Below, piece after piece: positions 2,830 through 7,315 of a stretch of 9,391 nucleotides of DNA. This stretch comes from Nitrospiraceae bacterium. Lineage in GTDB: Bacteria; Nitrospirota; Nitrospiria; Nitrospirales; Nitrospiraceae. The number at the start of each line of letters is the position of its first letter. Within the stretch, counting starts at the first letter, position 1. A program made the position numbers and the translations under genes. The notes under the pieces are model-generated. The model had not been told where the DNA came from. It saw nothing but the letters and a program-made list of their open reading frames with translations, and made no database searches. The stretch covers positions 1 to 9,391 of the forward strand of contig JACVSD010000068.1 of assembly GCA_014534095.1 (NCBI GenBank), in the 5' to 3' direction.

Positions 2830-3585
2830 ATGCCGGAGTCAACACCCATCATGACCCTGCCGTCCGCTCCATGGGCTTCTGTCATCATCCCCATAAAAGA
2901 TGAACGCGAGAACCTGTCACCTCTGCTCGCCAGCCTGGTCAAGGTGATCGATCAGTATGAACTCTCGCGATCCCGCCCCTATGAAATGATCCTCGTTGAT
3001 GATGGTAGTACCGATGGCAGCAGCGAGGAATTGGATAGCCTGGCCGCTCGATACCCTCAAGTACGAGTGTTCCACTTTGACCGTAATTACGGCAAGACGT
3101 GCGCGCTGGATGCCGGGTTCAAAAAATCAGCCGGCGACATCATCATTCAGATCGACGGCGACCTTCAGCAGGACAGCGAAGACATTCTGAAACTTCTTCC
3201 CTATACCGCCAGCTACGATGTCGTCTGCGGCTGGAGACAGGAGCGGCAGGACGGCTTGGTCAAGAAACTTTCGTCCCGCATTGCCAACCGGGTCCGAAAT
3301 CGCTTCACGAACGACGGCGTGCACGATACCGGCTGCCCGCTCAAGCTTTTTCGACGGCCGGTGCTCGAGCGCATCCCGCTGTTCGAAGGCCTGCATCGTT
3401 TCTTCCCCGCCTTGGCACTTATGCATGGGTTCACCGTCACGGAAGTGCCGGTCCGGCACTACCCGCGCATCCATGGCGTGTCGAAGTACGGCATGGGGAA
3501 CCGCCTCTTCAAATCGCTCTACGATCTCATCGCCGTGCGCTGGATGCAGAATAGAGTGTTGCGGTACAAATTCCGTGAGCGGTGA
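2830..3585 (+). CDS. Family 2 glycosyltransferase, polyprenyl-phosphate sugar synthase type (DPM1/ArnC-like)
   Basis: The 251-residue protein has the GT-A order of motifs: SVIIPIKDERENL (about 17-29), LVDDGSTDGS (55-64) for nucleotide binding, DGDLQQ (109-114) as the metal-binding DxD block, CPLKLFRRPVLE (169-180), and the acceptor-loop ending VRHYPRIHGVSKYG (208-221) typical of dolichol/undecaprenyl-phosphate sugar synthases. The expected reaction is transfer of a sugar from a nucleotide sugar to undecaprenyl phosphate at the inner face of the membrane. Unlike ArnC or GtrB it has no C-terminal membrane helices, so it should be soluble or peripheral as in DPM1. The sugar cannot be read from sequence. 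No ribosome binding site precedes ATG 2830; an in-frame ATG at 2851 has GGAG at 2835-2838 upstream and is an alternative start. The stop codon lies inside the first unit of the heptad repeat array that leads into the next gene. Confidence 0.9.
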   Translation: MPESTPIMTLPSAPWASVIIPIKDERENLSPLLASLVKVIDQYELSRSRPYEMILVDDGSTDGSSEELDSLAARYPQVRVFHFDRNYGKTCALDAGFKKSAGDIIIQIDGDLQQDSEDILKLLPYTASYDVVCGWRQERQDGLVKKLSSRIANRVRNRFTNDGVHDTGCPLKLFRRPVLERIPLFEGLHRFFPALALMHGFTVTEVPVRHYPRIHGVSKYGMGNRLFKSLYDLIAVRWMQNRVLRYKFRER

Positions 3586-3611
3586 TCCAGTGATGGGTGA
3601 TGAGTGATGGA
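3583..3611 (+). repeat. Heptad repeat array, left arm (consensus TGATGAG)
   Basis: Units read TGATCCA(G), TGATGGG, TGATGAG and TGATGGA on the plus strand. The array begins with the GT2 stop codon and ends with the start of the four-helix-bundle gene. GGTGATGAGTGATG (3596-3609) is repeated perfectly in inverted orientation at 3980-3993. GGTGAT (3596-3601) also matches the extended Shine-Dalgarno complement of 16S rRNA and lies 5 bases before ATG 3607. Confidence 0.75.
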
Positions 3612-4005
3612 ACGGACTGTTACAACTCACAAGGACCTCGACGTTTGGGAAAAGGCCATGGATCTAGCGGTTCGGGCATACGCCCTTACAAGCCAATTCC
3701 CCAAGGAAGAGCTCTATGGTTTGACATCCCAGATTCGGCGTTGTGCCATCTCTATCCCGAGTAATATTGCAGAGGGAGCAGCCAGGCAGTCTCGTAGAGA
3801 ATATGTACAGTTTCTCCACATCGCGTCAGGTTCCGTCGCCGAATTGGAAACACAGCTTATTTTAGCTGCACGATTAGGATTTCCATCTGATGCCAACGCC
3901 CTTGCCCACCTCGAGGAAGTCAGAAAACTACTCCTGGGCCTGCTCCGCTCTCTAAAAAAGAAACTCATCGCCCATCCCTCATCACTCATCACCGCATCAT
4001 CATGA
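3607..4005 (+). CDS. Four-helix-bundle protein, S23 / 23S rRNA-intervening-sequence (IVP) family
   Basis: The 132-residue protein carries the family hallmarks: DLDVWEKAMDLAVRAYALTS helix 1, FPKEELYGLTSQIRRCA (about 31-47), SIPSNIAEGAARQSRREY (49-66) and SVAELETQL (76-84). Members of this family are encoded inside intervening sequences of some bacterial 23S rRNA genes and at many loose sites in genomes; they form small helical bundles, often oligomeric, and their role is unsettled. ATG 3607 is chosen over the adjacent GTG 3604 because GGTGAT lies 5 bases upstream. The last 11 residues (AHPSSLITASS) are encoded by the right-hand repeat array and are not part of the fold. The stop overlaps the next start by ATGA. 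Lower GC than its neighbours and its place inside a glycosyltransferase operon suggest it arrived separately and has no role in the sugar pathway. Confidence 0.9.
   Translation: MERTVTTHKDLDVWEKAMDLAVRAYALTSQFPKEELYGLTSQIRRCAISIPSNIAEGAARQSRREYVQFLHIASGSVAELETQLILAARLGFPSDANALAHLEEVRKLLLGLLRSLKKKLIAHPSSLITASS
3964..3993 (-). repeat. Heptad repeat array, right arm (consensus TGATGAG on the minus strand)
   Basis: Read on the minus strand the units are TGATGAG (3991-3985), TGATGAG (3984-3978), GGATGGG (3977-3971) and CGATGAG (3970-3964), with a looser TGATG run up to 4003. The 14 bases at 3980-3993 are the exact reverse complement of 3596-3609. The array encodes the C-terminal tail of the four-helix-bundle protein and runs up to the start of the LAB_N gene. 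Confidence 0.75.
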
Positions 4006-4301
4006 GCCCCGAAGTTATCTGGATCGGTATCGGGTTCTTGGGACAGGGTCTTTTTTTCGGTCGCTGGGTCGTCCAATGGATCGCCTCCGAGCGGAAGGCC
4101 GAAAGCCGCGTGCCGACAGCCTTCTGGTATATGAGTCTCATTGGGGGACTCATCACGCTTGCCTACGCCATCTATCGTCAGGACCCCGTCTTCATTTCAG
4201 GCCAGGGCATCGGCACGTTCGTGTACATCCGTAACCTCATACTCATCAACCGGGCTGACCAGAGCAAGAATCCGGTTCGGCCGTCGTCACAACAGGCATG
4301 A
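4002..4301 (+). CDS. LAB_N domain membrane protein (lipid-A-disaccharide synthase N-terminal-like)
   Basis: The 99-residue protein is nearly all LAB_N domain: GFLGQGLFFGRWVVQW (about 11-26), a basic loop ASERKAESRVPTAFW (28-42), SLIGGLITLAYAIYRQDP (45-62) and GQGIGTFVYIRNLILI (68-83). This gives three membrane helices. The domain was named after an N-terminal extension of some LpxB proteins but has no catalytic LpxB part here. As I recall, Pfam groups it with SWEET/PQ-loop proteins, and the pattern Q-W...P...W...YxxxxxxP...N fits a SemiSWEET-like triple-helix unit. Stand-alone members are commonly found beside GT2 and GT39 genes. It starts inside the ATGA overlap with the four-helix-bundle gene, and the 25 bases upstream hold no Shine-Dalgarno sequence, so translation should be coupled. 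It also overlaps the next gene by ATGA. A role in moving or presenting a lipid-linked sugar is inference. Confidence 0.85.
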   Translation: MSPEVIWIGIGFLGQGLFFGRWVVQWIASERKAESRVPTAFWYMSLIGGLITLAYAIYRQDPVFISGQGIGTFVYIRNLILINRADQSKNPVRPSSQQA

Positions 4302-6190: not shown

Positions 6191-7309
6191 TCACCTGAAC
6201 GGCAGCACGCCACGGCCGGAATACAGCACCGTCAAGGCGAGGACCACACTTCCAACTAATGCTCCTTCGGCCAGCATCGCCGGAGTCCGAGATGGCGACC
6301 TCTGGGTGGTGTGATCCGAGCCGCTCTGAGACCAATAAGCGAGACAGGCAAATCCGACGGATGCAACCACCAGCGGAGCGGTCGTCATCGCGGCCAAGCC
6401 GTACGCGAGGAGCCCCCGCGAGAGCTTCTCGTGCGTCGCACCGGCGGGCCAGACACCATGACTCCATCGCACGCGTCGCAGCCAGAGCCCGGTCGCCATG
6501 GCGGCGATGCCCAATGCGATCAATAGGGTGCCGGTCATGCCGGCATCTGCATTATGGGCAAAGGTCCATAGCAGCGAAAAGGCGGCCGCCATTCCGATTG
6601 CCGCGTGGCGGAGCCCCTCCTCAAGCGACGCGCGCCATTCCTTCCAGGCAGCAGATGCCACGGAGCCGCTCAGCAAGCCCATCACCGCACCGCCACATAC
6701 GTCGGTGGGGAAATGCGATCCGCGTAGCACGCGGCTCAATCCCACAAATGCGGCTAGGGCGAACCCCAGAGCAGCGCACCATGGGAACCGCTTGGCCAGC
6801 ACGGTCGCCACGGCAAAGCTCGCAGTGGTATGGCCGGAAGGAAAGGAGTCCAGGCCCGATGCCCAGGAGGGAGCGAACTGCCATTCTCCGGAATGAACGA
6901 ATTTCGGACGAGGACGTCCGAGCAGGTGCTTCACGATGTTGGCTGCCAAGGCCGCTATTCCGTGAGCCCAGAGCGTCTGGATACCGGCCGTGGTGATCGA
7001 CGGCTTGGAGAGCCACCACCCTGTCGCGAGCAAGACTAGGCTTAGCGCCACCAAGTGCGATCCTTCGCCGATCCAATCTCCGGCATTGCTGGTGAAGGCC
7101 ATCCAGGGAATAGTGAGTTGATCCCATGGTAGATGGACCGTCACGGACCTCACATACCGTGTAATCGGCAGGTCGAAGTCCAGGAGACCGTAGAACGTCA
7201 CGCCTAGCGTCGCGCTCGAGCACGCTAGCGAGGTGATGCGCGAAGTGTGAAGAGTGGTGGGCCACGCCGAGGACTCCTCACTCTCAACTGATCCCTCATC
7301 ACTGATCAC
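6191..7309 (-). CDS. PAP2-family membrane phosphatase with a C-terminal membrane extension
   Basis: All three acid-phosphatase motifs are present in order: K-x6-RP in KHLLGRPRP (about 127-135), PSGH (157-160), and SR-x5-H-x3-D in SRVLRGSHFPTD (192-203) with the nucleophilic histidine H199. The family removes phosphate from lipid phosphates such as undecaprenyl pyrophosphate, phosphatidylglycerol phosphate or lipid A. At 372 residues it is longer than a minimal PAP2 protein (about 200-250): after the core, four or more further hydrophobic segments run from about 235 to 365. Start GTG at 7309-7307 has AAGGG 9-13 bases upstream and follows the TolB-like stop by 12 bases. The first dozen residues (ISDEGSVESEESS) are encoded by a heptad repeat array, so the original start may have differed; an in-frame GTG at residue 37 exists but would cut close to the first helix. 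It is the last gene of the minus-strand operon and converges on the GT39 gene, which suggests a shared lipid-carrier theme. Confidence 0.85.
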   Translation of the reverse strand: MISDEGSVESEESSAWPTTLHTSRITSLACSSATLGVTFYGLLDFDLPITRYVRSVTVHLPWDQLTIPWMAFTSNAGDWIGEGSHLVALSLVLLATGWWLSKPSITTAGIQTLWAHGIAALAANIVKHLLGRPRPKFVHSGEWQFAPSWASGLDSFPSGHTTASFAVATVLAKRFPWCAALGFALAAFVGLSRVLRGSHFPTDVCGGAVMGLLSGSVASAAWKEWRASLEEGLRHAAIGMAAAFSLLWTFAHNADAGMTGTLLIALGIAAMATGLWLRRVRWSHGVWPAGATHEKLSRGLLAYGLAAMTTAPLVVASVGFACLAYWSQSGSDHTTQRSPSRTPAMLAEGALVGSVVLALTVLYSGRGVLPFR

Positions 7310-7315
7310 TCAGCA
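7274..7315 (-). repeat. Third heptad repeat array, at the TolB/PAP2 junction
   Basis: Read on the minus strand, six consecutive 7-base units occur: TGCTGAG, TGATCAG, TGATGAG, GGATCAG, TTGAGAG, TGAGGAG. The three units TGATCAG, TGATGAG, GGATCAG match the order TGATGAG, TGATGAG, GGATGGG of the array at 3971-3991 with four differences in 21 bases, so the two arrays are probably related. The array supplies the GTG start and the first residues of the PAP2 protein. Confidence 0.6.

Follow-up and report, generated by a model that had tools for sequence, protein, structure and literature searches.

The genes for S23/IVP four-helix-bundle (4HB) proteins are, as a rule, enclosed by inverted arrays of short tandem units. 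The units on the two sides match one another and follow the protein tree across locations, the sites are occupied in a scattered manner, related hairpins without the gene are present, and some copies lie within 23S rRNA genes. The explanation that we favour, and to which we give an even chance of being correct, is a mobile element of ~0.46 kb comprising a single S23/IVP gene between inverted tandem arrays, with the protein reading the terminal repeats. In the best reading of these data, the intervening sequences of rRNA are the same kind of object.

The element in the window

The window is the whole stretch that was analysed, namely 9,391 nt of the Nitrospiraceae bacterium contig JACVSD010000068.1. 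The features relevant to the element are the following:

2830..3585, + strand: GT2 glycosyltransferase gene, left neighbour (PF00535)
3583..3610, + strand: left arm, tandem 7-nt units, mismatches allowed
3596..3609, + strand: left copy of the exact 14-nt inverted repeat
3604..4005, + strand: S23/IVP four-helix-bundle (4HB) gene (PF05635, NF008911, TIGR02436)
3972..3999, - strand: right arm, inverted array of the left-arm unit, mismatches allowed
3980..3993, - strand: right copy of the exact 14-nt inverted repeat
4002..4301, + strand: LAB_N gene, right neighbour (PF07578)
7288..7310, - strand: solitary array of the 7-nt unit of the window arms, at the start of the PAP2 gene

A first-pass annotation of this DNA had reported an exact 14-nt inverted pair, set in 7-base arrays, that brackets an S23-family gene. 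The pair is indeed present: GGTGATGAGTGATG at 3596-3609 recurs as its exact reverse complement at 3980-3993, and no other exact 14-nt inverted pair at most 800 nt apart was found in the window. Both copies are enclosed by 7-nt arrays (TRF rows 3581-3610 and 3963-4003). A match of 14 nt was reached in 0 of 2000 mononucleotide shuffles of both 76-nt flanks, the longest being 11 nt. The enclosed gene, which comprises 133 codons from the GTG and encodes 132 aa from the ATG at 3607, matched PF05635 (E 6.6e-37, 126.4 bits, curated cut-off 33.8), TIGR02436 (125 bits, cut-off 24) and also NF008911. Its product is predicted to form four helices (pLDDT 84.7), and the closest PDB entry is 2gsc, which is XCC0516 of Xanthomonas campestris.

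With regard to the position of the arms, the left one takes in the stop codon of GT2 (3583-3585) together with both start codons of the 4HB gene (GTG 3604, ATG 3607), in keeping with the annotated claim that the element sits at a stop/start junction. The right arm lies within the reading frame of the 4HB gene, at its 3' end, and the ATG of LAB_N overlaps the 4HB stop codon. The two arms are complementary ends able to pair as a stem. The 4HB gene is the only gene between them, and a transposase or recombinase of the element's own is absent, as had been claimed for the transposase. The gene was also correctly described as lower in GC than its neighbours (0.507, compared with 0.570 for GT2, 0.567 for LAB_N and 0.600 for GT39). 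Elsewhere in the window, the array at 7288-7310 has neither a 4HB gene nor a clear inverted partner, and a 183-aa ORF at 2124-2675 gave no match in a Pfam scan.

Inverted arrays and their units across the 4HB family

The 4HB family was found in at least 59 of the 79 genomes of the genus; eight genomes that had been picked for a copy next to GT2 gave 41 matches, with matches in all eight. The matching of the flanks was expressed as an arm score, i.e. how closely the upstream flank resembles the downstream one once the latter is reverse-complemented. It was calculated for 97 Nitrospira 4HB genes, each with a distinct coding sequence, sufficient coverage of the profile and flanks of 150 nt or more on either side, which came from a chosen part of the 4HB matches listed. 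The controls were 319 mechanical ORFs of N. moscoviensis and 600 flank pairs taken from different 4HB genes. The median arm score was 18 for the 4HB genes, compared with 9 for the control ORFs and 9 for the mismatched pairs. The 99th percentile of the control was exceeded by 74 of the 97 genes and by 26 of the 600 mismatched pairs, whereas 23 of the 97 genes fell below this cut-off. The cut-off is conservative, since among the five top-scoring control ORFs the first is a 4HB gene and no fewer than two of the others fall in array regions. The possibility raised in the annotation that other copies of the gene lack flanking repeats is thus contradicted, while its companion, that heptads occur freely, proved true in the form of the gene-free hairpins described below. 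The best period was 7 or 14 in 70 of the 97 genes, 9 in 14 and 8 in 7, whereas in control ORFs it was scattered across all periods. The outer length of the element had a median of 461.5 nt (80 elements with a score of at least 14).

Similar arms were observed outside Nitrospirota, in a sample of 22 loci drawn from 45 matching plasmid records. This sample comprises 19 cyanobacterial loci and one each from Gemmatirosa, Azospirillum and Riemerella; the loci are not independent events, because several of them are related. Inverted arms reached a score of 15 in 18 of the 22 plasmid copies and in 5 of 92 mismatched pairs. Two cyanobacterial 4HB genes, L234 (707-1066) and L240 (692-1102), have long direct arrays on both sides; L239 has no arrays and L247 only a weak direct match. 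Three cyanobacterial plasmid 4HB genes (L234, L235 and L241) are located between cas genes (cas6-cas4, cas10-cmr3).

Left and right units match within an element, with a period that is mostly 7 and also 8 or 9. In the 4HB tree, which is based on few columns and leaves many forks unresolved, the unit and its length cluster by protein subfamily, and the 9-nt units, the 8-nt units and many heptads form clades of their own. The exception to conservation within a subfamily is L076, a broken copy with another unit. Given that the subfamilies carry their own units, TGATGAG, for whose arrays the annotation had proposed to look around other copies of the gene, is ruled out as a universal signature of the flanks. 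The idea of fast concerted turnover of the arms at one site was likewise dropped; the tree shows units conserved within protein subfamilies.

The association between protein and arms extends to copies at different locations. Protein identity correlated with cross-arm similarity (Mantel r 0.339, maximum of 2000 permutations 0.095) over 4331 of 4656 pairs, namely those whose outer flanks had no detected similarity. Location was judged on at most 1.4 kb of outer flank and often on about 400 nt, so that some same-location pairs may have been misjudged. Among 66 different-location pairs with 55-70% protein identity, 47% shared arms with a score of at least 15, and the fourfold sites in these pairs were saturated (0.287 identical). 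In different-location pairs below 45% protein identity, arm sharing did not exceed 2%. As arms are shared despite saturated fourfold sites, they are constrained and travel with the protein. Nevertheless, the shared phylogeny of arms and protein could stem from slow evolution of the arms by another cause.

An explanation at the level of RNA would hold that the arms are kept for a stem in the transcript, as in the rRNA intervening sequences cut by RNase III, with the stem shielding or excising the insert and with movement being rare. The RNA of the window element does fold with the arms paired (z -3.41), copies exist inside 23S rRNA, and the excision of intervening sequences by RNase III is reported in sections of PMC4990558. 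We nevertheless regard this explanation as rather unlikely, as it is weakened by two results: mismatches in the arms of 80 elements show no bias towards G.U-compatible pairs (113 vs 112), and the duplex of the sense strand was the stronger of the two in no more than 46 of 97 cases. The wobble test thus gave no support for selection for a sense-RNA stem. Furthermore, a stem requires neither tandem periodicity, nor units that follow the protein, nor the direct arrays of L234 and L240. We prefer the interpretation that the units are recognised as DNA or as a single strand.

Occupancy of the GT2-LAB_N junction and hairpins without the gene

A search with the GT2 protein of the window gave 80 loci. 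All but one are assigned to Nitrospira, Nitrospiraceae, Nitrospirae or Nitrospirota, the exception being L022, from an uncultured Nitrosospira. LAB_N was found in 75 relatives, of which 14 have a 4HB gene at the junction and the other 61 have none there, which bears out the claim that the gene interrupts a normally contiguous GT2-LAB_N pair. Its presence in the pair is sporadic, and the claim of a repeat-bounded cassette is supported as well. In two of the 14 occupied loci, L069 and L076, the 4HB match is in two pieces, and five further loci (L021, L029, L062, L032 and L037) carry remnants, as judged by eye. On the tree of the flanking genes, 20 of 76 rows are non-empty, requiring 16 changes. 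Empty sisters exist for the occupied loci L043 (sister L042), L058 and L008. The annotation had suggested aligning relatives in search of an insert-free junction. Junctions with no 4HB gene were found (the 61 above), but the closest occupied and empty pair, L043 and L042, does not offer a clean split: the flanking genes are nearly identical and the whole 75-bp spacer has been exchanged. Neither this comparison nor the second site described below revealed a target-site duplication or the footprint of a new insertion. The GT2-LAB_N spacers of L027, L031, L060, L067 and L073 are about 116-134 nt long, gene-free and hairpin-like, with repeats of the GCGGGAC/GCGAGA type. Since some 'empty' spacers contain hairpins of other units, 'empty' sites may hold other elements.

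In 26 of the 36 pairs formed by the nine copies of the window type, similarity is higher for the element than for GT2. The identities of element and GT2 are 0.916 and 0.828 for L043/L058, 0.922 and 0.827 for L043/L008, and 0.972 and 0.890 for L024/L010, with the opposite order in L068/L071 (0.866 and 0.884). These identities fit horizontal exchange at the site, possibly via conserved neighbours. The junction also holds different 4HB subfamilies: the window type, that of L017 and L028, and that of L001. The nearest kin of L017 and L028 are at a second site near by, where a 4HB gene is present in L011, L041 and L063 and absent in relatives.

Spread at the GT2-LAB_N junction may be due to recombination through the conserved neighbour genes. 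In its strict form, this explanation holds that the gene is repeat-prone and not self-mobile, that slippage makes the arrays, and that template switching between the inverted arms keeps them alike. The replacement of the spacer in L043, the higher similarity of the element than of GT2 at the junction and the deletion remnants at the five loci named above can all be accommodated by it. It does not account for related arms accompanying related proteins at different locations despite saturated fourfold sites, nor for different subfamilies at one junction, nor for the fact that arrays of periods 7-9 are paired far more than those of other periods (see below). We consider it quite improbable.

The pairing of arrays was assessed in N. 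moscoviensis, in which seven 4HB matches, some of them partial, and many hairpins were found. The sample consisted of 20 evenly spaced stretches totalling 400 kb, with one 4HB match inside (L169). An inverted partner at most 800 nt away was found for 16 of 22 tandem arrays of period 7, 5 of 13 of period 8, 21 of 40 of period 9 and 12 of 19 of period 14, the double of 7. The remaining periods from 4 to 15 gave 0 to 4 paired arrays, and a first-order Markov sequence gave 0 at every period. When 22 arrays from other places were compared with the arms of the 97 4HB genes, the mean score was 22.9, compared with 13.7 with permuted units, and 13 of the 22 arrays beat all 40 unit permutations. Compared with the 4HB arms of N. 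moscoviensis itself, a library of five genes from which the broken GT2-LAB_N copy was left out, a good match was obtained only for hairpins resembling GTCTATCTG and GGGGTAAC. Dispersed gene-free copies that share their ends with gene-bearing copies are a MITE-like feature.

Hairpin loci numbered 29 in 1142 kb from ten genomes with the gene and 1 in 738 kb from five without, in a sample that was enlarged after a first look and contains the first sample. With N. moscoviensis removed, the figures are 8 in 742 kb and 1 in 738 kb (p 0.039), a weak excess, and four of the ten gene-bearing genomes show no hairpins. The excess of hairpins in gene-bearing genomes is suggestive only.

The lack of a nuclease or recombinase in the element would also suit a passenger. 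In this view an unrelated enzyme, either a transposase or a reverse transcriptase, would recognise the arrays and move the element in trans, and the 4HB protein would be an accessory or cargo. Among 11 gene-bearing genomes, Y1 transposases occur in seven and reverse transcriptases in three, and the protein has a weak fold similarity to Avd, a partner of reverse transcriptases. In contrast, neither the Y1 transposase family nor the reverse transcriptase family (PF00078) gave a match in N. moscoviensis, which is rich in hairpins. With these distributions, both enzymes were rejected as general movers. A single outside enzyme would also not explain why the units change with the 4HB subfamily. We give little credence to this explanation. 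A nuclease of family PF13366 was considered as a partner and rejected, since it had no match in any of the 11 genomes with the gene.

Relation to rRNA intervening sequences and a possible address code

The first-pass annotation had linked the gene to 23S rRNA intervening sequences, and this kinship is upheld by the PF05635 match and by two copies, L121 (Nitrospira genome G005) and L237 (Azospirillum plasmid), that lie inside 23S rRNA genes according to Rfam, applied to ten loci. Both have repeat arms. As G005 also has a GT2-LAB_N copy (L024, L095), one genome seems to carry both the rRNA and the intergenic form, although a binning error is possible given that G005 is a metagenome assembly and the contig of L121 is 4.7 kb long. 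In the Coxiella intervening sequence, as described in sections of PMC4990558, GACAGAT heptads precede the S23p ORF, complementary sequences form the bounds and RNase III cuts; older proposals that intervening sequences are mobile, with the ORF serving mobility, are cited there as well. IVP ORFs in 16S and 23S insertions are reported in parts of a survey of CPR bacteria (PMC11270868).

The elements described here share with 23S rRNA intervening sequences carrying an S23p/IVP ORF the protein family, a size of about 0.43-0.46 kb, complementary ends and sporadic occurrence, and the finding is of this known kind, as a variant of it. They differ in that the window copy is located between protein genes, GT2 and LAB_N, outside any rRNA gene, and in that the units vary by subfamily and follow the protein, which is undescribed in the literature found. 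S23 genes outside rRNA tied to tandem arms were not found in the open-licence literature, and earlier notice elsewhere is possible.

Heptamer repeats are already known and, in the parts of the sources that concern them, unexplained: GGGAATC in Xanthomonas and Nostoc, TAACTGA in Beggiatoaceae and cyanobacterial heptanucleotide repeats (PMC4692102, PMC4679880, PMC6344855). Two Xanthomonas genomes contain 70 and 75 convergent inverted heptamer pairs, and intergenic heptamers are described as generally not associated with mobile elements (sections of PMC4692102). These repeats resemble ours as tandem heptamers between genes and as inverted pairs, but the passages concerned do not connect them with an S23 gene, and any kinship with our elements is conjectural. 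MITEs and REP/REPIN hairpins are likewise short, dispersed hairpins resembling derivatives of a larger element. In contrast, the ends here consist of tandem arrays whose unit is particular to the subfamily, the presumed parent codes for a 4HB protein and not for a transposase, and no target-site duplication was seen at the sites compared. The Avd protein of diversity-generating retroelements has a related four-helix fold (bAvd PF22296, E 0.0007, below cut-off; Foldseek matches 8ub7 and 4dwl, TMq mostly 0.66-0.73, E 0.07-0.5), whereas a reverse transcriptase is absent from the nine window ORFs in a Pfam scan.

In the mechanism that we propose, the S23 protein would bind the terminal units and join both ends, with the length and sequence of the unit set by the protein subfamily. 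The ring protein TRAP offers a parallel, in which each subunit reads one unit on RNA. The S23p of X. campestris is described as a homopentameric toroid (sections of PMC4990558), and a smoothed estimate, which tends to be too high, puts the number of units in the 7-nt arms at about five. Given such a ring and about five units per arm, we propose that one unit is read per subunit, most likely on single-stranded arms. As the element has no nuclease or recombinase of its own, host replication and repair enzymes would be used, which would copy the hairpin with paired ends into intergenic spaces. Gene-free hairpins would be moved in trans, and rRNA intervening sequences would be copies that landed in tolerated rRNA loops.

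A broader reading, which we advance tentatively and rate somewhat below an even chance, is that these elements form a new class of mobile element in bacteria, with a private address code. Each subfamily would have a ring protein that recognises a 7-, 8- or 9-nt unit peculiar to it, with one unit for every subunit, at the two ends of the element and of the gene-free hairpins. Such elements would be a main source of bacterial intergenic heptamers and of rRNA intervening sequences. The 7-letter repeats that occur, so far unexplained, in many bacterial genomes may thus originate from elements of this kind. As the protein family is tied to a repeat family through matched ends, a shared phylogeny and gene-free copies, the puzzles of both families become open to direct tests of binding and of mobility.
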